A stretch of 64,000 bases of DNA, taken from the NCBI GenBank assembly GCA_037176885.1, contig JAWWNJ010000121.1, positions 496,001-560,000 on the forward strand. Direction: 5' to 3'. Under the pieces are notes generated by a model. The model saw only the letters and a program-made list of their open reading frames with translations, had not been told where the DNA came from and made no database searches. A program made the translations under genes and the position numbers. Of the stretch, positions 9,375 through 50,951 are shown one piece after another. Source of the DNA: Favolaschia claudopus. Taxonomy: Eukaryota; Basidiomycota; Agaricomycetes; Agaricales; Mycenaceae. The first letter of the stretch is position 1; every line of letters starts with the position of its first letter.

Positions 9375-9379
9375 CGCGC
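9375..9379. repeat. 5' target-site duplication of element 1 (CGCGC)
   Basis: The five bases before the 5' LTR are CGCGC and are repeated exactly at 20907-20911 after the 3' LTR. A 5-bp duplication is typical of Ty3/Gypsy integration and fixes the element ends. Confidence 0.92.
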
Positions 9380-9551
9380 TGTTAGGGATACGGATGATAT
9401 AATATTGATTACGTTTACGCTGCATGTATTGAGGATCAGTCAGCGTGGGAAAAGGGACTTTCTTTTCACCTACGTTGACTGACCCAGACTATTTCGATAT
9501 AGTATTTGGTTCGGTTCATTCGGGTGAACGTCTAAGTCTACACCCTCTACA
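9380..9551 (+). repeat. 5' LTR of element 1
   Basis: This 172-bp repeat begins TGTTAGGGATACGG and ends ACCCTCTACA, and recurs without a difference I can see at 20735-20906. It is short for a Gypsy LTR. No clear TATA box or polyadenylation signal was recognised. Confidence 0.95.
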
Positions 9552-9642
9552 CCTTTTTGAACCTCAAAGCTCCGACCGGAGCGCTATATTCAAAATTTCT
9601 ATCAATACTACACTTGTTTGAAGAAAACCTGGGATTCAGTCT
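9552..9642 (+). other. Leader of element 1; no tRNA-type primer binding site seen
   Basis: The 91 bases between LTR and gag start CCTTTTTGAACCTC and contain a small palindrome, CTCCGACCGGAG. There is no TGG near the LTR edge, which would pair with the CCA end of a tRNA primer. Priming may use an internal tRNA segment or self-priming as in Tf1-type elements; the sequence alone does not decide this. Confidence 0.5.
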
Positions 9643-14151: not shown

Positions 14152-14154
14152 CTT
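14149..14154 (+). promoter_or_regulatory. In-frame UGA between protease and RT (possible readthrough site)
   Basis: Gag-protease ends in TGA followed by CTT, and the same frame is then open for 3.8 kb through all of pol. A single stop with C in the +4 position is the most leaky stop context known in eukaryotes, though the classic motif is UGA-CUA, not UGA-CUU. Programmed readthrough would set the Gag:Pol ratio. The alternative is a nonsense mutation, for example CGA to TGA in this copy. Confidence 0.5.
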
Positions 14155-17943: not shown

Positions 17944-18098
17944 GAAATAGCAACGTTGCCACGTGATCGTGTCTGTGACCATCATTGAATCAACCGTGCC
18001 ACGTCACCCTCTCCATTTTCTCTCTTCCTCTGCTACCATCTTGTATCTATCCAAACATCGCACCGAGCGCTACAACTAGCCCGAATCGCTATTGAACG
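17944..18098 (+). promoter_or_regulatory. Pol-ORF3 spacer with CACGTG and CT-rich tract
   Basis: The 155 bp between pol and ORF3 hold CCACGTGATCG and TGCCACGTCACC, a pyrimidine-rich tract (CCCTCTCCATTTTCTCTCTT) and a possible acceptor AG (CAACTAG) about 20 bp before the ORF3 ATG. This fits an internal fungal promoter or a 3' splice region for a subgenomic ORF3 mRNA. Neither can be shown from sequence alone. Confidence 0.35.
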
Positions 18099-20699: not shown

Positions 20700-20723
20700 A
20701 CGTCGGACTGCGGGACTTGTCCT

Positions 20724-20734
20724 GGGGGGAGGGG
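20724..20734 (+). other. Polypurine tract of element 1
   Basis: GGGGGGAGGGG lies directly against the TG of the 3' LTR, where the plus-strand DNA primer of reverse transcription is made. Confidence 0.9.
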
Positions 20735-20906
20735 TGTTAGGGATACGGATGATATAATATTGATTACGTTTACGCTGCATGTATTGAGGATCAGTCAGCG
20801 TGGGAAAAGGGACTTTCTTTTCACCTACGTTGACTGACCCAGACTATTTCGATATAGTATTTGGTTCGGTTCATTCGGGTGAACGTCTAAGTCTACACCC
20901 TCTACA
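20735..20906 (+). repeat. 3' LTR of element 1
   Basis: This is the second copy of the 172-bp LTR, identical by eye to 9380-9551. Because both LTRs are copied from one template at insertion, identity means little time has passed. Confidence 0.95.
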
Positions 20907-20911
20907 CGCGC
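20907..20911. repeat. 3' target-site duplication of element 1 (CGCGC)
   Basis: An exact copy of the five bases before the 5' LTR. Removing the element joins CT-rich DNA on both sides, so the target was intergenic repeat-like sequence. Confidence 0.92.
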
Positions 20912-23501: not shown

Positions 23502-25299
23502 TGTAACGACTGGCCATTTTTGCGCGTTATATCTGGCTATTTTAAGTCAAGTGCGGCCCTAAACAACCCAACTACCCGCCACGACTATAGTCTTACTCGA
23601 CTATCAATAGGAAGTCAGTACCTCTGTTGGTGACACTAAGGAGGGTCAAAGTGAGCTCCGAGCTGTTGACCGTAAAACCCATCACAGGAGAAAGGCATTA
23701 TATTAATAGCCTACTGCAGTACTATGGATCTGTTCCATAACAGAACCCTCAGAAGAGTGACGAAGAGTCAAGTACTTGTGTACTACGGACTTAGACGAAG
23801 GTCTACAAGGATGTAGGAGGCGCCGCGGGGCCTATCAGAGTCAACATCAGTCAAAGGACAGATGCCGCGGGCTGCCGACTATAAATAGACAGCTGGAACA
23901 GCGGAAAGGGATCTCATACAGGAGATGCCGGTGCTAGGATCAGAAGGCAGAGTTATGGCAGGACATGAGGTCTTTGACAGGAGAGTTTGATGATGTGATG
24001 CTGAAGCCGAACAAGTGCGGCAACTTCATTAGAAATCTATTTCTATACGGGAGTCAGCGCGGATGACTTGGTGGCTTGATAAATTGGACAACAGACGAGC
24101 CTGTGATATTGCGAGTGAATTGGAATGTCCCAAGAATAGTCTTAGGAGTTATTAGAGGCGTTGATGGCACCACCGGAAGGGTTGCCGCCAGTGACGGATT
24201 GACGGGATCACCAATGATGGCGTTCCGCGGGCTTCCGCAATTCAGTGATTCAACCGTGGGAGTCATAATTGCTGACTTTCTACCGTTGGATCGACAAGCC
24301 AAGAGGCTGCCGAAGGTCCGCCGGGACACCCAATTACCAATATACCATCTCTCTACTCAATTGGATCGACATTGCTTACTCTGAACTATTTATGTGATGT
24401 ATTTCTTGGCATTAGTATAAAAGGACCTGTATTTCTCGTTGAGCTGGAGGACATCGCGCTCAGTCTACTGGACAGCGTTGGTGAACTCAGGCAGCAACGT
24501 AGAGGCATATATAAAGATATTGTCTACTCGTTTGTCTTAATAGAAATTGTGTTGAAGTTCAGTTCAAGTGTGAATCAAAGCATCGTTTCGAGAGTGTTCA
24601 CCCGCGGAGGCTTTGCTTTCGAGTAGCTTTGTCGTGGCCTTAGTGTGCTAGGAACTGCCTGCCTCTACTGCCCGCGGACTGTCTATCTCATTGTAAGGAT
24701 ACGTGTGCTCGAGAGTGAACTAGTATCTCCCTGAGTCTGAGGAAGAGTGGAACTGTCCATCTGCTGAAGCATTGCGTTGGGACTGCTGGCGCATAACCGG
24801 AAGAGATCTGATTAGTCCTCGTCTGAAAGGCTTGTGCTATATAAAGGAGTGTCAAAGGTTCCTGGAATTTGGAGGTTCAGGTCTGTAGCGTAACTGGCGC
24901 TATAAGAATTGTGCATTCTGCCGCGGAAACTGTCTGTGGCCATTGTTTCAATCTCGCCCTGATATTCAACTGCGTTGGGTATCTTGTATCCTACCGTTTA
25001 TAGTTCCTATTTTTAGGAAAGGTCCGCGGACGGAATCACTTCCATCTACGGTGTGTGAGAGCGTGTTTTGTGCAAGGTTCTTACTTGCAAGTCGACTTAT
25101 ATCCTCGTCACTGTGACATCTGGATTTCGGATCGAACCCCACGAACTCTTCGAGAGACATTTGAGTGTATCTTGTGGAGATATTTGTGTTGTAGTGTTGT
25201 GTGTGTTGGTTGATTGTGTTATATATATATTTTGGTGGTAGATTCTCTGCTGCGCTATATTTAGCACTTCAGTTGATATATTCAAGTGTCAGCGTTACA
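23502..25299 (+). repeat. 5' LTR of element 2 (1798 bp)
   Basis: It begins TGTAACGACTGG and ends AGCGTTACA; the terminal seven bases are inverted complements. The same sequence recurs at a fixed offset of 16085 bp. Seven CCGCGG hexamers lie inside (23823, 23865, 24225, 24602, 24672, 24921, 25024). Short frames within it are not supported as genes. Confidence 0.96.
23880..24846 (+). promoter_or_regulatory. Candidate TATA boxes in the element 2 LTR
   Basis: Four TATA-like boxes on the plus strand are promoter candidates: TATAAATA at 23880-23887, TATAAAAGG at 24416-24424, TATATAAAG at 24508-24516, and TATATAAAG at 24838-24846. The first lies 10 bp after a CCGCGG hexamer. Which one drives the genomic RNA, and thus where U3 ends, cannot be told from sequence. 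Confidence 0.4.
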
Positions 25300-25301
25300 T
25301 C

Positions 25302-25317
25302 TGGAGCCCACCGCGAG
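25302..25317 (+). other. Primer binding site of element 2
   Basis: Two bases after the LTR comes TGGAGCCCACCGCGAG. Its complement would be a tRNA 3' end: CCA, discriminator T, a seven-base acceptor strand and five T-stem bases. I could not name the tRNA. The match to tRNA geometry stops at the T loop, which is usual for a 16-18-nt primer site. Confidence 0.65.
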
Positions 25318-25835
25318 GGGTTCGGTGGTAATTTGTTGATAAAACAAAACGCGTTGCTGTAGTTGGGAGAGTCTAGAGAAGGGACTTTCCTGGGTTGTCG
25401 AGAATTTCAGCCCAAACAAATCCTCGTACTAGAAAGACGTCGAGGAGAGGCAGACACCAGCGTAGCCCGTCTCCATTAAATACAGGAGCAGGTTCCAGGA
25501 GTTTGCTAGAGCAAGCCAGGGTTGCACTACAAGAACCCGCTCAAACGTCGACTTCAAGGAACAGTCTTATACCCGAGTCTGTAAATTGGGGACCCTCGAC
25601 GTCTGGCAGAAAACCGCGTACGACCAAAAATTCCAGTACAGGACGGTCGTCTAGTTCGTCACCAGTTAAGAAGAGAAGGAGAGCGCGTTCCGCGGAAGTT
25701 ATAAATACTTCTGCAGCATTACCCTTTGAGGGACACGCAACCCACTCGGACGGCGAGCTATCTGATCATTTGAATCAGACCATCGAGGCTATTTCGAACT
25801 CCGTAGCCAAGATAAACCCCCCACAAACAAACACT

Positions 25836-27263
25836 ATGGCTACCTACGACGAGATTGATAAGAGCAAGATCCCGGATATTTTTGGGAGACATAACCTGAA
25901 ATTCGATGACGAGACAGGGGATTTGCCCAAGTATTTGGAAGGGATTGAGGATATCATCGCGAAGCAAGGAAAGCTTAGTGAGCAGAGCAAAAAGTGGATA
26001 GCACACCACTATGCGAACAGTAAGGTGCAGAAAGAATGGCAAGCTTTGCCCACCTATACGAATGGAACGTATGAGGAATGGAAGGCGGAATTGATGGATG
26101 CTTATCCTGAAGTTCGTGCAGTAGAGAAAGGTTCCCGCGCGGGCTGGGCGTCTTTCTTGAAACAGTATACAGACCGTCCGGTGAGAATAGATGAGGAAGT
26201 TGAATTTGCCAACTATTGTCGAAAGTTCCGCGGACGAGTTGCAGTGATGAACAAGGACCGAGAGATGCTCTCAAGGCGCGAGTTGGCGCAAGACTTTTTG
26301 AAAGGTATTCACCCTACCTTCAGGGAGACTCTTCGCAATATTGTGCTGGCCAGAAGTCCGACGGAACTTACTTCGTATCAGCGAGCAAAATCTGAATATG
26401 AAGCGCTGCCTGCGAACAAAGGAAAGGCCTATAAACCGGCCTACACTCATCCTGATGACCTGTACGAATGGGCAGACTTTGAGGAAATACTGAAGTCGTT
26501 GATCAAAAGTAATGACTCTATTTTCTTCACAACTCCCTCGGATACAAAGAGGAAGGCTGTTCTATTTTCGGGTAGTTCAGAGGGTGGAGATGAAGCTGCC
26601 AAGTTGAAGGCTAGATTGGAGAAGCTTGAGGCTGATTCCAAAGCCAGAGAGGAGAAAATTCTCCAGTCGAATAAGGAGATTGAGGACAAAATGGAAAAGA
26701 CCCTTGCTAATCATCTGGACAAGTTTACGACCGACCAAAAACAGGTCATGTCTAAGATGCATGAAGCCTTGACAAAGGGGACCTCCAATTATCCTAGTCG
26801 TCCTGTGGAAAGAAGAGAATACGGGCCAGACAGGCCATCGTATACACCGGATAGGCCGCCTCTTAGAGAAGGCAAGCCTACGGGCTGTTACTATTGTTGG
26901 GATCCTTCGCATTATGTTGCGGACTGCAAGCACAGAAGGGATGATATTACTGGGGGCCTGCTAATCCTGAAAGATGGGCGCATGTTCTTCTATGATGGAA
27001 AGGCTTTGCCGCGGGAACCCAAGAATAAGAGCTACATGACCAAAGTGCGGGATTACTATAACAATCGTACTCAGGTGTATTATAACCAAGAGGCGTTTGA
27101 GTATTATTACGCTAGTGACCCCACTGCACCGGCCGCGGAGTCGTTTGCGAGTGAATCCAGGGAAGAGTCAGACTCTCCTGCCACCGCGGATAGACTGGAC
27201 AGAATCGAGGAGTCTGTTGCAAAGATAGCGCAGTTTATGGCGGCTCAGAAGGATTTTCAGTGA
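25836..27263 (+). CDS. gag: Element 2 Gag
   Basis: Gag forms the particle and packages the RNA. From the first ATG in frame (MATYDEIDKSK) it is 475 residues. A helical capsid-like region (EWKAELMDAYPEV, FANYCRKFRGR, QDFLKGIHPTFRETL) is followed by a charged coiled-coil stretch and a canonical CX2CX4HX4C zinc knuckle (C351, C354, H359, C364). The frame is also open upstream to 25377 with an Arg/Ser-rich, coding-looking sequence but no ATG, so a spliced leader or a non-AUG start could add about 150 residues; AATTTCAG at 25409-25416 would serve as an acceptor. The stop is followed at once by the linker ORF. Confidence 0.85.
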   Translation: MATYDEIDKSKIPDIFGRHNLKFDDETGDLPKYLEGIEDIIAKQGKLSEQSKKWIAHHYANSKVQKEWQALPTYTNGTYEEWKAELMDAYPEVRAVEKGSRAGWASFLKQYTDRPVRIDEEVEFANYCRKFRGRVAVMNKDREMLSRRELAQDFLKGIHPTFRETLRNIVLARSPTELTSYQRAKSEYEALPANKGKAYKPAYTHPDDLYEWADFEEILKSLIKSNDSIFFTTPSDTKRKAVLFSGSSEGGDEAAKLKARLEKLEADSKAREEKILQSNKEIEDKMEKTLANHLDKFTTDQKQVMSKMHEALTKGTSNYPSRPVERREYGPDRPSYTPDRPPLREGKPTGCYYCWDPSHYVADCKHRRDDITGGLLILKDGRMFFYDGKALPREPKNKSYMTKVRDYYNNRTQVYYNQEAFEYYYASDPTAPAAESFASESREESDSPATADRLDRIEESVAKIAQFMAAQKDFQ

Positions 27264-28210
27264 TTCCGATGAGGGAGACTCGCTCGCGGAAAGCTCCTGA
27301 GGATCCGAAAGCCAAAGACCGCGTTCCAGAAAAACAGAAAAACCAACAAAAAGAAACAGTAGCCGAGAGAGATAATGGGAAAGCACCCATTAAGCCAGCC
27401 AGAGAGAATAGAGTTGAAGTGTTGCTACCGAAGCGTTCTACTCAACCTACGAGGAAAGTCACCGTTGAAGAAGTCAGTGATTCTGAGGACGAGTCGGTTA
27501 GTGTCAGAAATAAAAATCAGAAGGAAGAACTTCCGTTCAAGGATGTGAAACCTCTGTCTGACCCTCCCGTACGACCCGCGTTCCCGCGAAAACCAGCAGA
27601 GGAGCAACATGGCCAAGGGTCATCAGGTTCACGAAGAACAAGAGTGCCTAAAGATACTCAGCGGCGAGACAAAGCTACCGCGGAGATTGCAGACGCTATT
27701 CGGGAAACTGTGATACCAGTCAAAATAGGCACATTGCTGGATAGTAACGAGATGCTCCGGAAAACTCTTGAGATTGGGGGTCCGCGGAAGAACAAAGCTA
27801 AATTTATGAAGACTACTTCTGGTGATATTGTCCCTACCAAGGTGCACAACTTTGTCGTCCAAAGGGTGCTTGAGGATGAAGACTCAGACTCTGAGAGCCC
27901 CGCGGATGATGAAAGTGAAGCAGAGGATAACGTTCGAGTTGAGACAACGACTTGTGAAGTTGTAGATGAGGATGGAAAGACTGTGTCGGTGTTGATGTTT
28001 GACACGTTCCCTGAATTGGTTACCTCCAATGATCATGATTTACCGGAGGGAAGCGTTATTTGTGGGGACCCTGTCCTTCAATACTATGAGTCTCTACCAG
28101 AGGGAGAAAAAGCGAAAGCTGTTAAAGTCCCGGCCGCGGGCTCCTCTGCAAAAGCTCAGATGCATTCATCCGTCAGTGAATGGCAAGTATGTGGAAGCCA
28201 TTACGGATAG
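27260..28210 (+). CDS. Element 2 linker ORF between gag and protease
   Basis: This frame lies -1 to gag and overlaps its stop by 4 bp (GTGA). An ATG at 27269, five bases past the gag stop, would suit termination-reinitiation. The ~313-residue product is highly charged and rich in Glu, Lys, Ser and Asp (SDSEDESVSVRNKNQ, DSDSESPADDESEAED), and looks disordered, with no domain I recognise. It ends at 28210 inside the protease coding region, in a different frame. A +1 slip near GCA-AAA-G at about 28147-28156 would fuse it to protease. It probably corresponds to the gag-protease spacer of related elements. Confidence 0.65.
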   Translation: MIPMRETRSRKAPEDPKAKDRVPEKQKNQQKETVAERDNGKAPIKPARENRVEVLLPKRSTQPTRKVTVEEVSDSEDESVSVRNKNQKEELPFKDVKPLSDPPVRPAFPRKPAEEQHGQGSSGSRRTRVPKDTQRRDKATAEIADAIRETVIPVKIGTLLDSNEMLRKTLEIGGPRKNKAKFMKTTSGDIVPTKVHNFVVQRVLEDEDSDSESPADDESEAEDNVRVETTTCEVVDEDGKTVSVLMFDTFPELVTSNDHDLPEGSVICGDPVLQYYESLPEGEKAKAVKVPAAGSSAKAQMHSSVSEWQVCGSHYG

Positions 28211-28646
28211 CGGCTCGCAGATTGTATCAATGAATGCTCAGTTGGCCAAGGAAATCGGTTTGACTTGGAATACAAATATAGTCTGTGAGATGGTTGCTGC
28301 GAATAGCCAGATTCAGTCCACTTTGGGCTTGGCTATAAATGTGCCGTTTAATTTTGAAGGGATAGTGATGCACCTTCAAGTTCATATTATTGATGAGGTG
28401 CCTTATGAAGTTCTTTTGGGACGCCCCTTCGAAATTTTGTCAGAAGCTGTGTTTGCGAGCAAGAGAACCGGCGAAGTCGAGATCACAATTACGGATCCGC
28501 GCACAGGGAACAAAAATACCTTTGCAACCTCTCAGAGGGGGGTCAAGATAGATCGAGACACAGGAAAGCCAGTCCAGACAGCTCCCGCGGAGACCAAACC
28601 GGATTTTTGCAAGTCTTCGAGGAACTCAAAGATGGGGGAGAAGTAA
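28148..28646 (+). CDS. pro: Element 2 aspartic protease
   Basis: The protease matures the polyproteins. It lies +1 to the linker ORF and -1 to pol. The recognisable part starts near CIHPSVNGKYVEAI, with the active site ITDSGSQ (Asp codon at 28206). The second conserved segment, YEVLLGRPFEIL, matches the hydrophobic-Gly flap/C-terminal motif of retropepsins. The frame is open from 27999, but the first ~150 nt overlap the better-looking linker frame. No own ATG is convincing, so expression most likely depends on frameshifting from upstream. It ends at 28646, 40 bp into the pol frame. Confidence 0.75.
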
Positions 28647-31600
28647 TGGCCGCGTTTGAGTACAACGACCATGGAGAGTTGGTGTGCACAGGATATGGTT
28701 TACCGAAAGACGGGGATGTTGTTACGCAGGATGACAGGACGATGGCATATTTATTGGCGTCTAGGGACGCATTTGCAGGAGATAAGAATGCTAGCGTATT
28801 GTTGAATCAATACGCGGGGCAGGTAGAGAAAGATAAAGGCACAGATGTCTTCTTGTTCACGGAATCTGGAAGCCCGGGAAGCCCGAGAAAATCGAACCGT
28901 GGAAAGCATGCACCTAATCCGGGTGATAGCTCGGCTAAGTCTGCGTTTGCCTACATGGAGCGAGATTCCCGCGTGAATGATGATAAAGATAGTTCCGCGG
29001 AGGCGGCGGACCGTGCGCCGAAAGTGAACCGTAGAAAGCGAAAATACAAGAAGAAGAAGAAGAAGAAGAAGTCTAAGAAGACTTCGAAGGCAGAGGGAGC
29101 TAAGACAGTCCCTGCTGCGAAGGGGAAGCTGAATTTTGAAGTACCGGTGCCGGAAGTACCAAGAGAGCAATTTATTTTTGGAAATTTGGGCATCTCTATG
29201 GGAAAACAGCGAGTATTTGCTACTAAGAAGTACAAACCGGTCGCGGAAAAGATTAAGCCTATCCTTGGAAAAGTGGATGAGAAGTTCAGGATTGTACGGA
29301 ATATCACGGGGGATCCTTTGAAGGATATGCCAAAAATAGAAACGGATATTCCTGAGATTCACCCGGTAGGAAGATATACCGCGGAGCGAATGGAGGCATT
29401 TGAAAAGACTCATAACACTGGGTTCTTATTGCCTGAAGAGATGAAGTTGCTTCATCATTTTATGATGTTGCATAACGAGCATTTCGCCTGGGAAGAGGAT
29501 GAGCGAGGGCAATTCAAACATGAATATTTCCCGCCCGTTGATATGCCTGTGGTACCACATACACCATGGGTATGCTCGCAAATTCCAATTCCACCTGGAC
29601 ATTTTGAAGAGTTCTGCCGCATCATCAAGTCTAAATTAGATGCTGGGGTGTATGAACCATCCAACTCGTCCTACAGGTCACCTATTTTTGCGGTGATAAA
29701 GAAAGATGGAAAGTCATTGAGAATTGTACACGCGTTAGAGAGGTTGAATGAGGTTACAATTCAACACTCTGGGGTACCTCCAGCCACGGAGAAGCTAGCA
29801 GAACATTTTGCTGGTCGAGCGTGCGGAGCTTCGTTGGATATGTTTGTCGGGTATGATAATAGGGACTTAGCGGAATCTTCAAGGGATTATACAACCTTCC
29901 AGACGCCGTTTGGGGCACTGAGGTTAGTAAAATTACCGATGGGATGGACCAACTCTGTTCCCGTGTTTCACGAGGACGTTTGTACCATCTTGAGAGATGA
30001 AATGCCGCATGTAACAATCCCTTACATAGACGATGTGCCTGTCCGCGGGGGACCTACGAGGTACGAGACAAAAGATGGCGATTGGGAAAGGATTGCTGCG
30101 AATCCTGGAATTAGAAGATTTATCTGGGAACATCTCGAGAATTTAAATCGAGTGGTTACTAGAATGGCTTATGCAGGAGGAACTTTTTCAGGGAAGAAGT
30201 TGGTCCTCTGTGCGGATGAGTTTGAAGTTGTAGGGCATATTTGCTCTTACCGCGGGAGAATTCCCGATCCTAAGAGGGTGGACGTTATTAATAACTGGGG
30301 TTCCTGTGACTCTTTCACGCAAGTGAAGGCGTACTTGGGCACGGTTGGTGTTCTGAGGAGCTTTATTGAAGGGTACGGCGACATTGTTGCACCTATCAAT
30401 GAGCTGACGAAGAAGGACGTTCCCTTTGTATGGACCGCGGACTGTGATGAGGCACAGGCCAAAATTAGAGAAAGGTTGAGAAACTGCCCAGCTCTAAAAC
30501 CCCTGCGGTACGACTGGGATTCGGACATAGTAATTCAAGTGGATACTTCATGGAGAGCTGTGGGAATTATTATCTACCAGCTAGACCCAGATGATCCTAA
30601 GAAGAAATACTTTGCACGATTTGCGAGTATAACGTTAGGGAAGACCGAGGCGAACTATTCGCAACCTAAACGAGAATTGTACGGGTTGATGAGAGCTCTA
30701 GAGGCCATGTATTATTGGATTTTCGGAGCAAGGAAGCTTGTGGTTGAAACCGACGCGTTATACATCAAGGGCATGTTGAAAAACCCTGGAATGGGCCCCA
30801 ACGCCACGATTAACCGCTGGATTGAAAAGATCTTGATGTTCCATTTTAAGCTGAAGCATGTCCCTGGTGAAAAGTTTGCACCCGACGGGTTATCAAGGAG
30901 AGATCCTTTCCCTGGGGATGAACAATTCAAAAATTCGGAAGAGGGTTATGACCAAAATGAACCTCCCGAGGACCATGAGGACGTTTCCGCGGAAGGCCCA
31001 CAGCCGTTGGACTTCGAGGACTTTAAACACCTTATTGATACCAGAGGTGGATATTTCCAGTCGGAGGAGGAACAGCCGGAGATTGTGGACGTTGATGCAG
31101 TTTGTATGGATGATTTCCAACGTGATTGCGAGAGTGCCAGAATGACTGAAGCTAATCTGGCGAGAGCACGTAGAGAAGCGTACTCAAAAGAGAATAAGCA
31201 GATCCCTGAGTATATTTTAATGACGGAGCCTCTGATTCCAAATTTAGAATTGAAATGGGATGAGTCGAAGCGAGAGCCTTACGATGAAGAGCATCGTTCG
31301 GATTGGATGAAAAAGCGAGATGCTAAATTACCATTGGTAAAGGAATGGCTAGCGGATCCTATGAAAAGGCCCGCGGGAATGAATGATGATGCAGAGTATA
31401 GAAGTTTTATGCGCTTCGCCTCACATTTCTTTTTGAAAGGGGGGAGGATGTATAAGAAATCTTTTGGCACTGCGAATCAATTAGTTGTTGACAAGGAACA
31501 CCGCATGTACATGATGAAGGCTGCTCACGACAGTCTGGGTCACCGCGGAAGTTATGCAACTAGAGAATTGATTACGCTGCGATTCTGGTGGCCAGGAATA

Positions 31601-32869
31601 GAAGCAGATGTATTTTGGTACATTGCGTCTTGCGACGCTTGCCAAAACCGACAACATACACTGTTGAAAGTCCCGCCAGTTTTGACCCATACTCCAAGTC
31701 TATTTCAGGTCATCCATACCGATGTAATGGTAATGGGGCAAGTGTCCAATAAATGTGGACTAGTTGTTGATGCGAGGGACTCTTTGAGTTCCTGGTTAGA
31801 AGCGAGACCGCTTGTGAGAGACACGGCTCACGCAATTGGAATGTTCCTATTTGAAGAAATCATTTGCCGTTGGGGTTGCCCAAAGCAGATTGTAACGGAT
31901 AATGCGGGGCAGTTCAAGAAAGCTGTGGAATGGTTGAAACAGAAATACGGAATACCAAATATTCAGATTTCACCATACAACTCTCAAGCGAACGGGAAGA
32001 TTGAAAGTGGACACTTCCAAATGCGTCAGGCATTGTTCAAAGCGACTGGCAAGAACCCATCCAAATGGTTCTGGTTCTTCCATGTTATGCTTTGGTCAGA
32101 CAGAGTTACGGTTAGAAAAGGATTAGGTTGTTCACCTTATTTTGCGGTCACTGGAGCGCATCCAATTCTACCGTTGGATATTGAGGAAGCTACTTGGTTG
32201 GTTGAAATACCAGGTCGAGTGTTGACGACCGCGGAACTGATAGGGCTAAGAGCCAGAGCTTTAGCAAAGCATGTTGCCCATGTTGAACACATGAGGAAGC
32301 GTGTAGATCATGCTAAAATGGTTCAAGTCCGTAAACTCGAACGGTACAATGAACATACGATTAAAAACTATGATTTCAAACCGGGAGATCTGGTTCTCGT
32401 GCGCCATACTGAAGTAGAGAAATCTCTGAACTCTAAGATGGATCAGAAGGGGAGATACCTTGGCCCAATGGTTGTTATAAGACGTACCAAGGGAGGAGCG
32501 TATATCCTAGCTGAAATGAACGGCGCGTTATTCCATGACAGGATAGCCGCGGGGCGTGTGGTTCCATACTTAGCACGTCGCCGAATGCAAATTCCGCTCA
32601 ACATCCAAAAGTTTATTGATGTATCTACGGAGACACTCGAAAAGCTAGTGGACGATATTCCCGCGGAAGGGGAAAAGACAAAGGAGCGCAGCTCAAAGAA
32701 GATAAAGGATCTAGCCTTCGATAAAGTAAATATAAGGGTAACACCTGAAGACTTCGAAAAGGCTGAGTCCTCAGAATCGGAGACTGGGAACGATGAAGAT
32801 GAAGCAGAGTCGGACGATGAGCCAAAAGAGTCGGTTGGTCCTAGACGGTCCAAACGCAGGAAGCATTAA
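28607..32869 (+). CDS. pol: Element 2 Pol: RT, RNase H, integrase
   Basis: A frame of about 1420 codons, -1 to protease. TTTTT at 28604-28608 inside the overlap would allow a one-base backward slip. A basic Lys-rich tract from an AAG microsatellite (about 29047-29090) precedes RT. Numbering from 28607, the RT box is YIDD at 473-476. RNase H follows (IQVDTSWRAVG, then VETDALYIKG). Integrase has an HHCC finger (HDSLGHRG, then CDACQ) and the triad D1039, D1098, E1133, with D-X34-E spacing. A GPY-like module (KGRYLGPMVVIRR) is present, but no chromodomain; the tail is acidic, then basic. All catalytic residues are present. Pol ends 56 bp from the end of the convergent minus-strand gene. Confidence 0.92.
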   Translation: MQVFEELKDGGEVMAAFEYNDHGELVCTGYGLPKDGDVVTQDDRTMAYLLASRDAFAGDKNASVLLNQYAGQVEKDKGTDVFLFTESGSPGSPRKSNRGKHAPNPGDSSAKSAFAYMERDSRVNDDKDSSAEAADRAPKVNRRKRKYKKKKKKKKSKKTSKAEGAKTVPAAKGKLNFEVPVPEVPREQFIFGNLGISMGKQRVFATKKYKPVAEKIKPILGKVDEKFRIVRNITGDPLKDMPKIETDIPEIHPVGRYTAERMEAFEKTHNTGFLLPEEMKLLHHFMMLHNEHFAWEEDERGQFKHEYFPPVDMPVVPHTPWVCSQIPIPPGHFEEFCRIIKSKLDAGVYEPSNSSYRSPIFAVIKKDGKSLRIVHALERLNEVTIQHSGVPPATEKLAEHFAGRACGASLDMFVGYDNRDLAESSRDYTTFQTPFGALRLVKLPMGWTNSVPVFHEDVCTILRDEMPHVTIPYIDDVPVRGGPTRYETKDGDWERIAANPGIRRFIWEHLENLNRVVTRMAYAGGTFSGKKLVLCADEFEVVGHICSYRGRIPDPKRVDVINNWGSCDSFTQVKAYLGTVGVLRSFIEGYGDIVAPINELTKKDVPFVWTADCDEAQAKIRERLRNCPALKPLRYDWDSDIVIQVDTSWRAVGIIIYQLDPDDPKKKYFARFASITLGKTEANYSQPKRELYGLMRALEAMYYWIFGARKLVVETDALYIKGMLKNPGMGPNATINRWIEKILMFHFKLKHVPGEKFAPDGLSRRDPFPGDEQFKNSEEGYDQNEPPEDHEDVSAEGPQPLDFEDFKHLIDTRGGYFQSEEEQPEIVDVDAVCMDDFQRDCESARMTEANLARARREAYSKENKQIPEYILMTEPLIPNLELKWDESKREPYDEEHRSDWMKKRDAKLPLVKEWLADPMKRPAGMNDDAEYRSFMRFASHFFLKGGRMYKKSFGTANQLVVDKEHRMYMMKAAHDSLGHRGSYATRELITLRFWWPGIEADVFWYIASCDACQNRQHTLLKVPPVLTHTPSLFQVIHTDVMVMGQVSNKCGLVVDARDSLSSWLEARPLVRDTAHAIGMFLFEEIICRWGCPKQIVTDNAGQFKKAVEWLKQKYGIPNIQISPYNSQANGKIESGHFQMRQALFKATGKNPSKWFWFFHVMLWSDRVTVRKGLGCSPYFAVTGAHPILPLDIEEATWLVEIPGRVLTTAELIGLRARALAKHVAHVEHMRKRVDHAKMVQVRKLERYNEHTIKNYDFKPGDLVLVRHTEVEKSLNSKMDQKGRYLGPMVVIRRTKGGAYILAEMNGALFHDRIAAGRVVPYLARRRMQIPLNIQKFIDVSTETLEKLVDDIPAEGEKTKERSSKKIKDLAFDKVNIRVTPEDFEKAESSESETGNDEDEAESDDEPKESVGPRRSKRRKH

Positions 32870-32925
32870 AGATTGTGGTGGTATGCGCCTCTGTAATCTT
32901 AAATTAGAACTTCTCCGCGGAAGGA

Positions 32926-33669
32926 TTAAAATGGGAGAGCGTACTTGTCAGGCGATTCGACGGAGTGAATGGAGATGCCAGGAGGAAGGAGCTTGGACAT
33001 ACGAAGCTCGACGAAGCCGAGGGCGGAGTTGTCGTAGCCGTGAAGGATGAGTTCCTTGCGCATGTAGGCGAGTTCATGAAGATCATCGATCTTGTTGACC
33101 GCTTTGATGAACTGGGCCTTGCGAGCCTTGATGGAAAACTCATGGTGGTAGGCGAAAGCTTCGTCAAGCTGGTTAAGCATGGTCTCCAGGTCGACGGTGC
33201 TGCGACCGAAGATGATAGCTGAAGGGGAGGATTAGCGAGGAATAAGTCTGGACATCTATAAATGGACGCACCAGGACCTCCGCGCTTCTTCCAACTTTCG
33301 ATCATCTTGTCCTTGCTGGTGAAGTCGCAAGGATGGAATTGAATAAGACAGTTGTGGCAAGGAGGACCCCAACTAGTAGGAGCGCAAGGCTCGACGTTGT
33401 GTTTCTTGGCGCAGCAAGAGCACTGTTCAGTCGGCTGGTGATAAAAATAGATCAGTCGAAGTTGAAAGTAACAAGTACTAAGGACGCACCTTATTATCTT
33501 CCATAAGATAGATGGCAGCTTGAAACTTGGGAAGGATCTCGCTGACCGGGACTATGATATCGCGTGCGAAGGCTGCGAGGACTGCGGCAGGATCCATTTC
33601 GTCGGGGCTGTCGTAGAGATAATCGTAGTAGTCGTCGTTCTCTTCGTCGTCTAAGCCGTGGATGCTCAT
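32926..33669 (-). CDS. Antisense gene B of element 2: six-cysteine cluster protein (211 aa)
   Basis: Three exons, 33669-33490, 33434-33272 and 33218-32926, with introns of 55 and 53 nt starting GTGCGT and ending CAG; phases join into 211 codons. Residues 1-60 are acidic (DDEENDDYYDYLYD). Residues 65-96 hold C65-X2-C68-X8-C77-X8-C86-X2-C89-X6-C96, close to the fungal Zn2Cys6 pattern but with eight instead of six residues in the first loop. The rest is helical (LDEAFAYHHEFSIKARK). I do not recognise a named family. A zinc-binding nucleic-acid-binding protein is inferred. It ends tail-to-tail with pol. Note the unusual strand: it is transcribed against the genomic RNA. Confidence 0.75.
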
Positions 33670-34254
33670 GCAAAGAGAAAAGAATATTATGGGAGAAAAC
33701 GTTCCTATGAGGCACTGTTTAAATAGTAAACACTGCTGAGGAGATGTCTTGCCTGTGATTATTTGAATCAGATTTTGTATTGATCATAAGCGGGACGGCG
33801 GAAAGTAAAGGAGTGAGACTTGAAGTCTAGGCTTGCCGAGACTTGGAGGCGCAAATGATCCAGTGGAATAAGGACTTCAAGGAGCATGTAGGCGGTCACG
33901 GCAATGGTGTCGTTCACAAAACGGCTTCCGCGGCGGCTTGAAGTACTTGAGAAGTTGAAGTAGAACTGAACGATTGGAGTTCTATTTTTAGAATTCTGAG
34001 CGCGGAAAAAGAGTCTTACCACTCCTGAGATGTCCAAGAGACTGCGGGAAATCGGACGAAGTTGGCTTGACAAAACAATTGTATTGCAAGCACTGCTAAG
34101 TATATACGAGACACCCGGGGATTTGGACAGTTGCTGGTTGAACAGCAAATATGTGCGGTTGAACGCACGACGATACGATAGGGAACACAGAGAGTCGACG
34201 GTTTATGTGTCTAAAGAGCGAAGGCACATAGGTATATAGGCCGCGGAAGGACGA

Positions 34255-35953
34255 TCAAGTCTAGAAGGCGGAAAGGTTTAACTGGAGAGCTATAAAAATA
34301 AACGCAGAGACATACCGCGGAACTAGCGGGGCGCATAATGGGATCCTCGTTGTCGGCATGATGGATCTTCATGAGCTGCTCGAGCTGGTCATCCATCTCC
34401 TCGTAGGCGCGAAGCCAGTAGCGATACTTGAAGGAAGCGGCGGCCATGTTGCGGCGGAGGTAGCGCTCCCGAGCCTTGAAACCTTGCGCGTCCAAGTGCT
34501 TGAGTTGGTTCTGAGAAACCTTCCAGGTCTTGTTGACATCGTCCGGATGCATGATGGCGATGAGGTCCTTGTCCATGGAGTCTATAATAAAATTTAGACG
34601 AAATTAGATCAAGGAGAAGATGAACTCGTACCAGGGACTTTGGGCTCGTAGTCGAGGTCGACGTCATCCGGTTCGGTACGGGCACGCTTGTTGCTGCGGT
34701 TGGACACAGGGTTCAACGACAAAGCAGGCTATGAGCGAGAATTAAGCAGAGAAACAGAGTTGACGAATATTTCACGCACCATAAGTGGTTCCGCGGGCGC
34801 CATCTACAACAATTGATGAACGTTAAGCGAGAATTCAACCGTGGGATATGGGTTACGTACCTTCTCGTCCTCGTCAGGACAAGTGGAAGATGTGTCGGAG
34901 TTCTTCGCCTTGGGGCCTTTGCCCTAATGAAAACGATGTTATAAAAATAGAACAGAGTGAAAAGGCGAACGCACAGGAACTTTACGAACATTTTTGAACA
35001 TGTCCTCTGGAACGGGATCGTCAATGATGCGCACGGATTTGCCGTCGTCTTGAGGAGCCTTACCGGCAGGGATACCGTCCTTGGGTTTGACAGGGCAGTT
35101 GTCCTGGCCGTGCTGGTGAGAAGAGCAAGACGAACAAACGGAAATCTGGGTGAATGAAGAGGAAAGTGCAGAGGGATAAAAATAGACGCACAGTGTCGTT
35201 CTTGACCTTGGGCGCACTATTCTTCTGGAAGGAGAGACCAGGGGGCAAAGAGGGGCCTCCTGCGCGATAGTTGGCTCCCATGGCAGCGATATAGAGAGGG
35301 TTGATTCTACCTTCGTCCTTGTCGAGATTCATCTGGAGTTGGTTAATACCATAGATAATCTTCGTAACGTCTGAGGAATACCTGATCAGCGACGGAAGCT
35401 TCCTCCGCGGAGTCGTCGTCCCCGGAATCGTCGATGACTTCAACAGACTTACCCTGCATTATAGAGGACAGTTCAGGACCAGGAGGCATGCGACGAACAC
35501 GAGAAAGCACCTGTTGAACTTGAGCCTTAGCACGGTGGCCCTTGATGGCTGCCGCGGCCTTGTCGCGCTTGCTATTCTTGGCGTTGTGGTAGTTGTTGAG
35601 CATGCGGTCGATAGCGCCAAGCTGGGAAGTAGGGATCTTGAACTTGGAGATCTTGTACTCGTCCCTCATAGCGTTGGAGGCGGCAGTAAGAGCAGTGACG
35701 ACCTTCTCGTTGGAGGGGTGCTGAAGGGACTGAGCGAATAGTTTGAAGTCCGACTAAAAATAGCACAGAGTCAGCGCGAAAAGCGTTTGGGCATGCAAAA
35801 ATATGGACGAACCGCCGCGGCTGCGAACGTGCTGAGCGTAGAGTGAATGACAGCCGCAGGGAGAGAGTCTCTGAGGGCGACGACCCGTTGAAAGTCGCGT
35901 TCAGCTTCAAGGATAAGGTTGGACGCTTCGATGAGCGCAGAGCGTGGTGCCAT
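34255..35953 (-). CDS. Antisense gene A of element 2: CCHC zinc-knuckle protein (~426 aa)
   Basis: Nine exons read cleanly: 35953-35813, 35753-35382, 35332-35192, 35145-34975, 34923-34861, 34803-34780, 34728-34632, 34581-34316 and a last 6-nt exon, 34260-34255. The eight introns are 46-59 nt. The predicted protein has about 426 residues: a helical N-terminus (ASNLILEAERDFQRVV), a basic Lys/Ala region, an acidic Asp/Ser/Glu stretch, and a zinc knuckle CX2CX4HX4C (C222, C225, H230, C235). After that come acidic, Lys/Pro-rich sequence and a helical C-terminus (SFKYRYWLRAYEEMDDQLEQL). It has no known family that I can name; a nucleic-acid-binding accessory protein is inferred. The final exon choice is the least certain part. 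Confidence 0.7.
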
Positions 35954-36974
35954 GGCATGCGATGAAGGCCTGTAGGCGACGAAGAAATGAGCAGAGAACA
36001 GAAGTCAATTTATAGTTTTGACTAGGAGAGCTTGGTTAAATTGTTAATGACCGGCTACGATCGTGAAAACGAGCCAAGGCTGTTGGTTGCACCTCTAACT
36101 GAATTGAATATGCGAGGACGCATCTTTTTTCTTTAGTGAGGGGGAGAATATAGAGCAACAGACAACCGCGGGAGGGTATTGCGCCACCGCGGGCCTTGCA
36201 AATTTACCCATAAAGAGACAGGGAAATTGCTAAAATTAGACGATTTAGAGCTGGAGCGTTGCCAAAGCCAAGTTGCGGAAGAGTTTTAAGGCTGAATAAT
36301 GTCGATCGGTTCCTATACGATCGATTTTAAGAGGCAGTTAGGGATGATAGTGGTTATTCTATTAAGCAAGAGGCTTGTGGAATATACATGCGGGAGTACA
36401 GAGCTCTACTTTAAGTATACGTTCAGAGGTACTTGAAAGAGAGAAAGATAAACTGTGCTAAAAATAGCCCGCGGGGAGCCAGAAAAAGAGATTTTGGCTA
36501 GAGTAACTTTTTGACGACTTGTAAGAAAAAGTGTCAGGGAGTGTCAGAGATGACTTCTGATGGAAGTTAAGGAGAAATTTAAAAGACGGTATTTTTGGAG
36601 TAGGGAAGATGGACTTGACGAATTTTCGTAAAAAGAATATTCGGCAATCTCCGGAAACTGATGATGAACAGTTGATGGCCTTCAAGCCAGTAATTGATCT
36701 GATCACTCAGTTGTTCTCACAGTTCAAACAATATAGACAGATGAAGTGCTTTTGCGCACTGTGCAATTGAGATCCAAGCTACCCTAAGTTTTACAGGATA
36801 AACTAAGGGAGGATCTAGAGATACTATGGCTATTTAACAATGGTCTTTAGTAAAACAAAAAAATATCTTCGAAAGTTTATAGACTAGAAGAGGATAGTCT
36901 GTACAAAGTGCGGTGTAGATATAAGCAAAAGAAAAAGCGTCGTGCGAAGCCAAGAGACGAGTCCCACCAACCCC
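35954..36974. other. Noncoding spacer inside element 2 between antisense genes A and C
   Basis: No open frame worth calling in this 1.0 kb. As the upstream region of gene A it probably holds its promoter and the 3' end of gene C. Three CCGCGG sites are present (36166, 36187, 36469). The one at 36469 follows TAAAAATAG, a pairing also seen at 39465-39484. Confidence 0.55.
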
Positions 36975-38751
36975 CTACCGCTTGCGCTTAGCTCCCGAGC
37001 TGCTCCCCTCCTCGCGATCAGGAGAAGGTGGACGGGCGGAAGCAGGCTTGGGGTTGGGCTTGTCGAAAACCTCGGCAGAGCTAAAAGCTGCGATGGGCTT
37101 CGGACGAGAGCCAGACGAACCGCCCGCGGGCGCAGAGACAGACGAACCACCGGAAGGAGGTGGAGGAGCCGTCAGCAAACGCTGATCAGGAGGCGGCGCC
37201 GCCGGTGGGTGATGAGAAAAGTCCTTTGGAAGGGGCCCGACCGAGAAACGGTTGGAGATCTGCTGGTGGTAAACATGCCCCGTCACGTTGCCGTCGTCGT
37301 CTTTCTGCGGAATGGGACCCGTGGTTGGGTGGTCGTCCAGGACGCGGAGCTCGGCGTCCATGATGTTGGACTTCATGAAGACGCTGTGGTACATATCCCG
37401 GATGGTCTGGGCGTCGACACGGTTTTCAAACAAGTCGTCGAAAGTATTGTTACCGAGGGCCTCGTCGATGCGTTGGAAGTGGAAAGCGGCGTCGCTGTGA
37501 CCGTGATTGAAGCGTTTAAGGGCGCGCGCGTACAAAGCTGCCTGGATCTGCAGCTCGTGGGTGTCCACCAACAAGTTGGTGAACTGTTGGGCAAGCTGAT
37601 GGGGCGACACGTTCCAATACGGGAGCAACTGCTCGAAGAGCAGACGGAGCTGATTGGAGTCCGACGTGTACGAGCAGCGATAGTGCTTGTCGGCACAGAA
37701 CGTGCACACTTCGCTGCCGCGGGCACGAACACAAGGTCGACCATGGGCGGCGCAGGTTGCACACGGAAAGTTCTCCGGCGAGAACCACGGCCCGGACGAG
37801 ACGCTCTGCACGATGGCTGTTGGGATCTGAAGCAAGGCCAAAGGTGGCGGAGCGGTGCCTAAAAACAAGTTAGACACAGAAGAATGAAAGCAAAAAAGAA
37901 ACGTACCATCAGGCGGAAGCGCACGGAAGTGCTCGAGAAGCTGCATTCTAGTTGAGATGGGCTCGGGGTCCGGCGTAGTTGCCGCGGGAGCCTCAGACTC
38001 AGGCTCGGGCGTAGGAGTAAACATGTCGCTCAAATCCTGGCGGAAAGTTAGAAAGAAAGATAAATGTAAAGAGATGACGAACCTTTCCGGAGGTTTTAGC
38101 CTTTTTGAGCGGAGGATTGTCGAGTTCGTCGTCAGAAAAGTCGAGTTCAGGCGCTGCCGCAACGAGGTGTGGAATTTGGAAAGAAGAAGACAGGCAAAGA
38201 GTTTCGGTGTTGGCTGAGAGACGAAGCTGGGTTTCGGCAGACGGGCGGATTGCCCGATACACTGGAATTAGGGCCCCTTGACCGGGCACGGATTTGGCGA
38301 TGCCTTTGAGGACGTCGGAGACACAAACGAGGAAAGTCTCGACGACGTCGGGGATGTCGCTAAAGTCTTTGCGGTAGTCGAGCTGAGATAGCAAAAGAAG
38401 AGTTAGTTAAAGAAAAAGGAAGACGGCACAACGACGTACGAGTATGGGCTTCAAACGATGAATGGCCTTAAGCTGCTCCGCGTCGGGTGTGGCAGTCGAG
38501 GGATCGTCAAAGAAAGTTACGAGGAGACGAGCGTCGTCGGTGTCAAAAGGCGCCCAGTACTGAGCCAAAGGGTCGTCGTCGAGCACCTCGGTAATGACTG
38601 GGACGCTGTCACGCCCAGGACCACCGCGTGGAGCACCCCCGCGCCCTCGACCCTTGGCCTTGGGGCCACGACTGGCTGGCGAAGCGATGGACGAGTTGCG
38701 CGTGGAACGGCGCGTCGCTGCTGACGAAGTGGTGGACTTGTTGGATACCAT
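36975..38751 (-). CDS. Antisense gene C of element 2: Zn2Cys6-spaced cluster protein (~541 aa)
   Basis: Four exons, 38751-38440, 38382-38083, 38036-37907 and 37858-36975, joined by introns of 57, 46 and 48 nt with GTACGT/GTTCGT donors, give 541 codons; an in-frame TTG or ATG further up (to 38817) could add 22. The N-terminus is basic (SRGPKAKGRGRGGAPRGG). Exon 3 adds a Pro/Glu-rich stretch. Residues 180-209 hold C180-X2-C183-X6-C190-X8-C199-X2-C202-X6-C209, exactly the spacing of a fungal Zn2Cys6 binuclear cluster, though with fewer basic residues between cysteines than usual. A helical region follows (LRLLFEQLLPYWNV and beyond), then a Pro/Ser-rich tail ending AKRKR, a likely nuclear signal. 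A DNA-binding regulator is inferred, with CCGCGG as its candidate site. Confidence 0.75.
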
Positions 38752-38817
38752 ACCGGCGACAAGCACCAGGGTTGATCGATGGGTAGTGGAAGTTGTAAGG
38801 AAACCAGAAGAGGACAC

Positions 38818-39576
38818 TACTCAACGACGTAGGCGTCGAGGAGCGCAAGTTGGACGATGTAGAGAAACCAAGAAGAGGCCACAGGGTGTAACAGACACTG
38901 TGTGTGGTGGTGGTAAAAGGGAAGGAAGAATGTGGGCGCTAAGAAGGCGCACCCACAGCCTATAAGTCGAGACGGACTTAGAGAAATTTTCAAGAAGGAC
39001 TTACACGCAGTCAGAGGAATGAATTAGATCTCGATTTAATATCCCTGATAGAAGTCCTAGAGAGTTTGAAGAAGACGCCGCAGTAATTAGAAGAAAGATT
39101 AGGTTTGATGGAAAACCTATTCTGGTTTCTATTGAGTTGCTGGCCACGGCGAGACTGATAAGCCGGCGAATGATAAGATAACAAGGAAAATGAGGCGTAC
39201 CTAGGATTAGGGTTATCGCTTGGACCAGCAGAAGCGAGAAAAATTGACCAAGTCAAGGAAATTGAGGACAAGAGCTGAAAAGCCCCTGTCTACGATTTTC
39301 AGACAGGAAATGTCAATGACGTCATATGCCGTAATTGTGATTGGCGTCCGCGGAAGCAACTGTCTAAATTAACAGACGGAACGTTTTAGCGAGTAGTGCA
39401 GGAGGACTTGACTAAAAACAAGTTGCTCGAGGAAAAAGGGACAGTGAAGTAGTTTGCAGTTGGTCTAAAAATAGACGTCCGCGGGAGTTGTCATCCTTGC
39501 GGTCCACTTAATTTAAAGCCAAAAATAAGCACGAATTTTGGTGCAGGCTATAGACCGGGGACGGTCTAGATTTAGT
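38818..39576. other. Noncoding region upstream of antisense gene C
   Basis: No gene. It probably includes the promoter of gene C. Two CCGCGG sites occur close together (39348 and 39479); the second is preceded by TCTAAAAATAGACG. Confidence 0.5.
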
Positions 39577-39586
39577 GAAGGGGAGA
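39577..39586 (+). other. Polypurine tract of element 2
   Basis: GAAGGGGAGA abuts the TG of the 3' LTR and would prime plus-strand DNA synthesis. Confidence 0.88.
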
Positions 39587-41384
39587 TGTAACGACTGGCC
39601 ATTTTTGCGCGTTATATCTGGCTATTTTAAGTCAAGTGCGGCCCTAAACAACCCAACTACCCGCCACGACTATAGTCTTACTCGACTATCAATAGGAAGT
39701 CAGTACCTCTGTTGGTGACACTAAGGAGGGTCAAAGTGAGCTCCGAGCTGTTGACCGTAAAACCCATCACAGGAGAAAGGCATTATATTAATAGCCTACT
39801 GCAGTACTATGGATCTGTTCCATAACAGAACCCTCAGAAGAGTGACGAAGAGTCAAGTACTTGTGTACTACGGACTTAGACGAAGGTCTACAAGGATGTA
39901 GGAGGCGCCGCGGGGCCTATCAGAGTCAACATCAGTCAAAGGACAGATGCCGCGGGCTGCCGACTATAAATAGACAGCTGGAACAGCGGAAAGGGATCTC
40001 ATACAGGAGATGCCGGTGCTAGGATCAGAAGGCAGAGTTATGGCAGGACATGAGGTCTTTGACAGGAGAGTTTGATGATGTGATGCTGAAGCCGAACAAG
40101 TGCGGCAACTTCATTAGAAATCTATTTCTATACGGGAGTCAGCGCGGATGACTTGGTGGCTTGATAAATTGGACAACAGACGAGCCTGTGATATTGCGAG
40201 TGAATTGGAATGTCCCAAGAATAGTCTTAGGAGTTATTAGAGGCGTTGATGGCACCACCGGAAGGGTTGCCGCCAGTGACGGATTGACGGGATCACCAAT
40301 GATGGCGTTCCGCGGGCTTCCGCAATTCAGTGATTCAACCGTGGGAGTCATAATTGCTGACTTTCTACCGTTGGATCGACAAGCCAAGAGGCTGCCGAAG
40401 GTCCGCCGGGACACCCAATTACCAATATACCATCTCTCTACTCAATTGGATCGACATTGCTTACTCTGAACTATTTATGTGATGTATTTCTTGGCATTAG
40501 TATAAAAGGACCTGTATTTCTCGTTGAGCTGGAGGACATCGCGCTCAGTCTACTGGACAGCGTTGGTGAACTCAGGCAGCAACGTAGAGGCATATATAAA
40601 GATATTGTCTACTCGTTTGTCTTAATAGAAATTGTGTTGAAGTTCAGTTCAAGTGTGAATCAAAGCATCGTTTCGAGAGTGTTCACCCGCGGAGGCTTTG
40701 CTTTCGAGTAGCTTTGTCGTGGCCTTAGTGTGCTAGGAACTGCCTGCCTCTACTGCCCGCGGACTGTCTATCTCATTGTAAGGATACGTGTGCTCGAGAG
40801 TGAACTAGTATCTCCCTGAGTCTGAGGAAGAGTGGAACTGTCCATCTGCTGAAGCATTGCGTTGGGACTGCTGGCGCATAACCGGAAGAGATCTGATTAG
40901 TCCTCGTCTGAAAGGCTTGTGCTATATAAAGGAGTGTCAAAGGTTCCTGGAATTTGGAGGTTCAGGTCTGTAGCGTAACTGGCGCTATAAGAATTGTGCA
41001 TTCTGCCGCGGAAACTGTCTGTGGCCATTGTTTCAATCTCGCCCTGATATTCAACTGCGTTGGGTATCTTGTATCCTACCGTTTATAGTTCCTATTTTTA
41101 GGAAAGGTCCGCGGACGGAATCACTTCCATCTACGGTGTGTGAGAGCGTGTTTTGTGCAAGGTTCTTACTTGCAAGTCGACTTATATCCTCGTCACTGTG
41201 ACATCTGGATTTCGGATCGAACCCCACGAACTCTTCGAGAGACATTTGAGTGTATCTTGTGGAGATATTTGTGTTGTAGTGTTGTGTGTGTTGGTTGATT
41301 GTGTTATATATATATTTTGGTGGTAGATTCTCTGCTGCGCTATATTTAGCACTTCAGTTGATATATTCAAGTGTCAGCGTTACA
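39587..41384 (+). repeat. 3' LTR of element 2 (1798 bp)
   Basis: The same sequence as 23502-25299, with no difference found on reading, including all seven CCGCGG sites (39908, 39950, 40310, 40687, 40757, 41006, 41109). Confidence 0.96.
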
Positions 41385-50766: not shown

Positions 50767-50951
50767 TGTATCCTGATTGGCTGCCGGTTCGTCTTGAGTG
50801 GTAGGCTGGGTACTCTATCTCTGATTGGCTCCAGGTTTGATGGGTTGACGACGATTACAGTGTATCCTGATTGGCTGCCGGTTCGTCTTGAGTGGTATGC
50901 TGGGTACTCTATCTCTGATTGGCTCCAGGTTTGATGGGTTGACGACGATTA
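50767..50951. repeat. 94-bp tandem duplication with four inverted CCAAT boxes
   Basis: Unit one is 50767-50860 and unit two 50861-50951. They differ at one base that I can see (GTAGGCTGGG versus GTATGCTGGG). Each unit contains TGATTGGCT twice, giving four inverted CCAAT boxes 58-305 bp upstream of the following gene's ATG. It may act as its upstream activating region. Confidence 0.85.

Follow-up and report, generated by a model that had tools for sequence, protein, structure and literature searches.

Why should a single six-letter word recur along the entire length of a retrotransposon, in coding and non-coding sequence alike? The question is raised by a 64,000-nucleotide stretch of the Favolaschia claudopus genome (C121:496001-560000, hereafter the window; the host genome comprises 264.57 Mb in 460 contigs). 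The window contains element 2 (23502-41384), a recent Ty3/gypsy long terminal repeat (LTR) retrotransposon with gag, pol and three antisense genes, denoted A, B and C. The assignment follows from an LTR pair with a target repeat, the presence of gag, and the order reverse transcriptase (RT)-RNase H-integrase. An exact count gives 60 CCGCGG in the window, 51 in element 2 and nine elsewhere. These are the figures that a first-pass annotation had obtained by hand, and the excess turned out to be stronger than stated there. The hexamer is almost certainly under selection. As a tentative answer, we propose that it is an element-wide recognition site that would be read by a zinc-cluster protein encoded by the element itself and coating the copies against silencing.

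The excess is specific to the element. The single-LTR unit of element 2 holds 44 sites, versus 2.9, 3.8 and 11.4 expected under Markov models of order 1, 2 and 3, and CCGCGG is the most over-represented hexamer of the element at all three orders (z of 24, 21 and 10, respectively). In seven control stretches of the window, other words rank first, with z of 4.7-7.8 compared to 24 in element 2, and the rest of the window contains nine CCGCGG where 12-17 are expected. The seven other six-letter palindromes composed only of C and G occur one to four times each in element 2, and CpG overall is not raised. Comparison with the host genome, which the first-pass annotation had named as a check, yields 60,847 CCGCGG genome-wide, or 0.23/kb, so that element 2, at 2.7/kb, is about twelve times denser; the reversed word GGCGCC is slightly more frequent in the genome (68,711). 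As had been claimed, every compartment of the element holds sites: seven in the LTR, five in the gag region, five between 27264 and 28600, 11 in the pol region, one, five and three in the regions of antisense genes A, B and C, respectively, and seven in spacers. Other copies are similarly loaded: two on contig C1 have 42 sites (2.6/kb) and 39 sites (2.9/kb) per single-LTR unit, and each of the 30 pol loci compared, one of which is the window's own copy, has 12 or 13 per 4.8 kb.

The same word dominates a diverged sister family. The sister copy at C28:943958-962440 (L069+L070) aligns to element 2 at 61% DNA identity and carries 44 CCGCGG per single-LTR unit of 16.4 kb, again as the top hexamer (z of 22). 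Forty of the 44 sites of the main family align to the sister without gaps, and at 17 of these the sister also has CCGCGG, compared to 4.1 expected when hexamers are matched for local identity; 20,000 draws never gave as many as 17. In the same alignment, the share kept is 12% for other hexamers and 15 of 99 for words with six G or C and two CpGs. Even when the sites were masked before alignment, 13 of 44 still coincided exactly, versus 0.11 obtained by shifting. Sites are thus kept between diverged families, a further check that the first-pass annotation had put forward. The other sites have been gained or lost, yet the sister reaches an equal total, suggesting upkeep of density with turnover. 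In both families, sites are spaced a little more regularly than by chance (p = 0.04 in element 2 and 0.05 in the sister), the largest gaps being ordinary. Unlike the main family, the sister also has raised counts of near-words, namely CCCCGG (15 versus 5.4), CCTCGG (15 versus 7.5) and GCGCGG (14 versus 5.1). Strong conservation of sites among copies within the main family was considered and rejected: cell counts gave 4 of 1608 site CpG cells changed versus 244 of 12,853 outside, with the window copy included twice, but by column over 30 distinct copies the difference loses significance (invariant, 9 of 13 site words versus 63% of other two-CpG words), and the raw 7/7 invariance in the class of loci with the closest gene C came to p = 0.04 with locally matched controls and L046 dropped.

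A compositional or mutational accident, through codon bias, CpG or repeat expansion, is hardly credible: the Markov models, synonymous shuffles, words of the same composition, flanking contexts and the sister family all contradict it, and no point in its favour was found. The coding regions are most telling. In synonymous shuffles that fix the protein and its codon usage (5000 per open reading frame, ORF; the pol part taken from 28601), gag of element 2 has five CCGCGG versus 0.42 (highest shuffle, four) and pol has 11 versus 0.83 (highest, six); the corresponding figures for the sister are five versus 0.62 in gag (highest, five, so that the observed number was reached at least once) and 10 versus 0.78 in pol (highest, five). 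Put differently, 16 of the 29 tripeptides in gag and pol of element 2 that could be written with CCGCGG are written so (gag, 5/10; pol, 11/19), whereas the shuffles predict about 1.3, and the sister uses 15 of 29. The three ORFs of element 1, an unrelated Ty3/gypsy element in the same window, use the word in one of 86 permitting tripeptides versus about 5.9 expected by shuffles. The earlier statement that neither codon bias nor one promoter explains the sites therefore holds.

The protein sequence itself seems to have given way to the word in places. Among 111 aligned pol homologues (of 120 listed, those longer than 1100 amino acids; 1514 were found), CCGCGG-compatible peptides occur at nine well-aligned pol sites in 13, 60, 1, 0, 1, 14, 92, 58 and 0 homologues; the other three of the 12 pol sites fall in gapped alignment ends and score 0. 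By this comparison, some pol sites use conserved peptides through codon choice, and others sit on lineage-specific amino acids. At four of the nine well-aligned sites, at most one of the 111 homologues is compatible, so that here the amino acids appear to have been adapted to the DNA word. For instance, the site at 30250 encodes YRG in both the main and sister families; of ten homologues displayed, seven have YEG and one each FEG, YKG and YRG. Amino-acid compatibility of site peptides versus control peptides did not differ significantly (p = 0.14; nine versus three peptides), and pol as a whole has no surplus of permitting tripeptides.

The shape of the word bears on what might read it. Pooled over the window, the sister element and the gene-C loci (genomic loci matching gene C), the sites lie in 102 different flanking contexts, counted as different when more than nine of 24 flanking bases differ, and hence are not copies of a longer repeat. 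When CCG and CGG were separated by spacers of 0-12 bases, only the zero-spacer pair was enriched (44 in each family versus 0-9 at spacers 1-12), and in the main family words with one mismatch are not raised (56 versus 48 expected), the pattern expected of a sharp binding site. The upkeep of the hexamer in two families is most simply put down to a protein that reads it. Alternatively, the self-complementary hexamers could act in genomic RNA, in packaging, dimerisation or Gag binding. A full-length transcript would hold sites throughout, and on the sense strand a purine directly follows CCGCGG at 41 of 44 sites in the main family and 39 of 44 in the sister. This preference partly follows the purine-rich strand, and a purine rule, which holds for 28/28 sites in the LTR and gag-pol and 13/16 in the antisense region, but for 12/23 further gene-C-locus contexts, is not claimed because of this last failure. 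Furthermore, a sharp zero-spacer everted CCG/CGG is typical of DNA-binding zinc clusters. We consider an RNA-level role distinctly improbable; selection probably acts on the DNA.

Candidate readers are encoded in the element itself. Genes A-C lie between pol and the 3' LTR and have predicted introns; all three were found in the one sister copy (tblastn). Genes A and C encode zinc-cluster-like domains with six cysteines, and for this reason recognition of the everted CCG/CGG pair by a self-encoded protein is our best guess; on these sequences, we lean slightly towards an element-encoded reader. The first-pass annotation had singled out the products of genes C and B, under labels that may differ from those used here. 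Its idea of a self-encoded reader is sustained as far as genes A and C are six-cysteine zinc-cluster-like genes, and is qualified in that gene B has a CCHC knuckle, not a six-cysteine cluster, and gene C is variable, with binding by any of them a candidate function. The pattern of Zn2Cys6 (Gal4-type) clusters is CX2CX6CX5-12CX2CX6-8C, with a usually basic first loop. Gene C fits this pattern and gene A falls outside it, with X8 in the first loop; both are without the usual basic first loop. The six cysteines of gene C are invariant in all 12 aligned sequences, down to 28% identity, and their spacing varies between classes. A relative of gene C (P0001, 59% identical) is the annotated F. claudopus protein R3P38DRAFT_3232933, with a similar exon layout. 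The gene A region, in one frame, matched no Pfam family.

Gene C sits in a cassette that differs between copies. Its 118 matches, from all 135 candidates scored, range from 100% to 25% identity, and many copies with divergent gene C have pol 99-100% identical to that of element 2; in the C5 copy, pol is 100% and gene C 29% identical. One class ceases to resemble the DNA of the window near 36.58 kb, save for a piece of 82 bases, and becomes similar again, at 73%, near 38.75 kb. Within the closest class, the last exon of gene C shows a synonymous divergence (dS) of 0.26-0.43 with a nonsynonymous divergence (dN) of 0.008-0.024 (dN/dS of about 0.03-0.06; six pairs, with a seventh pair differing by one base), implying that the cassette is old and its protein constrained. 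The mosaic has probably arisen because template switching or conversion keeps the remainder of the element uniform. A copy on C1 with a 29%-identical gene C retains the same site spacing throughout the part that holds genes A and B, which suggests that A is probably the more constant six-cysteine protein and the better candidate reader.

A reader supplied by the host was also considered. Heat-responsive retrotransposons recruit host stress regulators, zinc-cluster factors are abundant in fungi, and element 2 could in the same manner have recruited a host factor of the Pdr1/Pdr3 type. Yeast Pdr1 and Pdr3 are zinc-cluster activators that bind the pleiotropic drug response element (PDRE) TCCGCGGA (PMC11111045), and nine of the 44 sites, exactly as the first-pass annotation had reported, read TCCGCGGA. 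The likeness extends to the identical zero-spacer everted CCG/CGG, whereas PDREs are promoter elements and the sites of element 2 are element-wide. Activation would call for sites in the LTR rather than along 16 kb of ORFs, antisense genes and spacers, and genome-wide CCGCGG is not enriched relative to its reversed word. We regard a host reader as unlikely.

If the reader is self-encoded, it would be a zinc-cluster protein from the antisense region, most likely that of gene A, given its constancy, with gene C a possible partner; it would bind the everted CCG/CGG pair as a dimer and coat the whole element, so that copies stay expressible against host silencing, as VANC does for VANDAL. Methylation of the CpGs in the hexamer might gate such binding, as the first-pass annotation had proposed. 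Because sites occupy the whole length rather than a promoter, protection or marking fits better than ordinary activation, and it is this that invites the comparison with VANC. By that analogy, anti-silencing could be the main effect of the reader, a suggestion that we advance with reserve. The same sites could instead serve antisense-encoded proteins as a self-limiting repressor that holds copy number down; Ty1 is reported to have self-encoded copy control (PMC7055915), and the last exon of gene C is constrained. A repressor would not need sites far from promoters, and we consider this reading very unlikely. Tethering for self-directed integration, or for recombination between copies, is equally improbable in our view. 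The mosaic copies would be in line with it, as would contig C1, where the listed site positions (C1:23442-54304, G000) suggest two elements with a common LTR (three LTRs, two internal regions). Common LTRs and mosaics also arise from ordinary recombination and template switching, however, and the copy of element 2 in the window lies 1.4 kb from the nearest outside CCGCGG.

Several observations weigh against recognition of a maintained site by a self-encoded zinc-cluster protein. Gene C matches the Pfam Zn_clus profile below threshold (12.1 bits versus a cut-off of 21; E = 0.22), and six of 12 gene C sequences match it at E <= 5. In a profile search of solved structures, Leu3 scored E = 1.4, behind an apparently unrelated protein at E = 0.36; structure prediction yielded low-confidence models for both the gene C exon and the gene A cluster (mean predicted local distance difference test scores, pLDDT, of 49 and 59), and a fold search with the gene C model returned nothing better than E = 3.8. 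Gene C is highly variable between copies while the hexamer is constant, and its last exon is weakly enriched in the word, with 10 CCGCGG in seven variants versus about 3.9 expected and none in the sister. Words with one mismatch are somewhat raised in the sister (78 versus 54 expected). Within the main family, CpG columns of pol sites are variable in 4 of 52 cases versus 62 of 416 (p = 0.2), and the invariance of seven of eight sites versus 4.6 expected (locally matched, p = 0.04) is a weak signal. Eight pairs of gene-C loci have 5-7 common sites versus 3.1-6.3 expected; in the 60% class of these loci, none of seven site words is invariant versus 11% of others, and in the 30% class, seven of nine sites are.

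VANDALs are Mutator-like DNA transposons, and the comparison with them, first drawn in the first-pass annotation, can be kept in part. Like VANDALs (PMC5735166, PMC10398659), element 2 has a short motif piled up within the copies and encodes accessory proteins with variable parts. The motifs of Arabidopsis VANDALs are found in non-coding DNA as tandem repeats, and they are not the same from one family to the next (PMC5735166). Element 2, in contrast, is an LTR retrotransposon; its sites are also coding (17 of 44 in the gag and pol ORFs) and dispersed in the distinct contexts described above; and the sister has the same top hexamer although genes A and C are 32% and 28% identical, respectively. 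As the non-coding location, tandem repetition and change of motif all fail, element 2 is not a member of the VANDAL system, even if it may work alike. It is quite conceivable that this retrotransposon has written a self-recognition code along its full length, changes of its polymerase included, and that the antisense zinc-cluster proteins coat and protect every copy; such a tag of self versus other in a retroelement may then have evolved apart from VANDAL/VANC, although we hold this, too, only provisionally. Among the titles and opening lines of abstracts searched, largely without subscription journals, we found none that described an element-wide CCGCGG or an LTR retrotransposon with a motif read by its own protein.

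Other LTR retrotransposons, too, have antisense genes in the interval from pol to the 3' LTR. A review lists additional antisense ORFs in maize Grande, rice RIRE2, Retand and Botrytis Boty (brtn), describes their products as without clear database similarity, some being nuclear and one carrying an SMC domain, and calls the functions of such genes yet unknown (PMC7264820). Unlike these, element 2 has three antisense genes predicted to be spliced, two with six-cysteine clusters, plus the element-wide motif. If true, the proposed recognition system would assign a role to the antisense genes that LTR retrotransposons carry. Little is known of how mobile elements evade silencing by their hosts, and a retroelement whose coding sequence is bent to carry one hexamer would be a simple, testable fungal case: there is a single motif to study with three candidate proteins in tens of near-identical copies, and the sister family serves as a replicate.

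Table 1. Coordinates of features in the window (position 1 is its first base)
Feature	Position	Strand	Remarks
CCGCGG array	23823..41114		51 sites = 44 distinct + 7 in second LTR
5' LTR	23502..25299	+	1798 bp, identical to 39587-41384; CCGT at outer side
CCGCGG in 5' LTR	23823, 23865, 24225, 24602, 24672, 24921, 25024		7 sites
gag ORF	25377..27263	+	628 amino acids; CCHC knuckle by eye; 5 CCGCGG
pol ORF	28409..32869	+	1486 amino acids; RT, RNase H, integrase; 12 CCGCGG
Gene A	32926..33669	-	three exons; splice model by eye and script, stop by eye; sister homologue 32% amino-acid identity
Gene A six-cysteine cluster	33327..33422	-	C-x2-C-x8-C-x8-C-x2-C-x6-C; six cysteines kept in sister
Gene B	34270..35953	-	several exons, approximate model by eye; sister homologue 28-35% amino-acid identity
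Gene B CCHC knuckle	about 35095-35136	-	by eye; not a six-cysteine cluster
Variable cassette with gene C	36580..39119		replaced or deeply diverged where pol is 99-100% identical (L039-L068)
Gene C	36975..38751	-	four exons; splice model by eye and script; sister homologue 28% identical
Gene C six-cysteine cluster	37674..37763	-	C-x2-C-x6-C-x8-C-x2-C-x6-C
3' LTR	39587..41384	+	same 7 CCGCGG as 5' LTR; CCGT at outer side
AAAAATAG or complement	25007, 29332, 29682, 33443, 33982, 34943, 35178, 35756, 36460, 39467		
Element 1, unrelated Ty3/gypsy	9359-20907		terminal direct repeats of at least 194 bp, 95% identical

The Pfam profiles RT_RNaseH and Integrase_H2C2 match pol above their cut-offs, and RVT_1 (E = 3e-4) and a DDE domain fall below theirs; among 7989 scored, 1514 homologues reach E <= 0.001. 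When the genome was searched with the RT protein, 72 of the 1765 first-look candidates were scored, yielding at least 72 matches; 61 have 99-100% identity and 11, the sister family, 88-89%. With gag, for which 96 of the 555 candidates were scored, there were at least 97 matches, including 22 with 59-60% identity, several of which fall on the same stretches as sister pol. Other pol families of the same genome are represented by at least 34 matches to P0009, with 65-66% identity (34 of the 2162 candidates were scored). These counts may include alleles, since 86.8% of BUSCO genes are duplicated in the F. claudopus genome according to its description (PMC10905254). In a search for DNA of relatives in viral contigs, two stretches fitted a pattern and neither was confirmed.

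The single-LTR element also holds ten copies of a second word, AAAAATAG or its complement (Table 1), which is absent from the rest of the window and resembles the MEF2/Rlm1 MADS-box site. Three copies lie 1-9 bp from a CCGCGG and several fall in antisense introns. The pattern CTA(A/T)4TAG is present eight times in element 2, twice in the sister and nowhere else in the window. At 23865-23890 in the LTR, a CCGCGG stands 9 bp upstream of TATAAATAG, a possible promoter as judged by eye. Elsewhere in the window, element 1 has a third ORF after pol (867 amino acids, without Pfam match), 50767-50951 is a tandem duplication of a 91-bp unit at 99% identity, and an ORF at 57663-58346 looks, by eye, like a terpene synthase.

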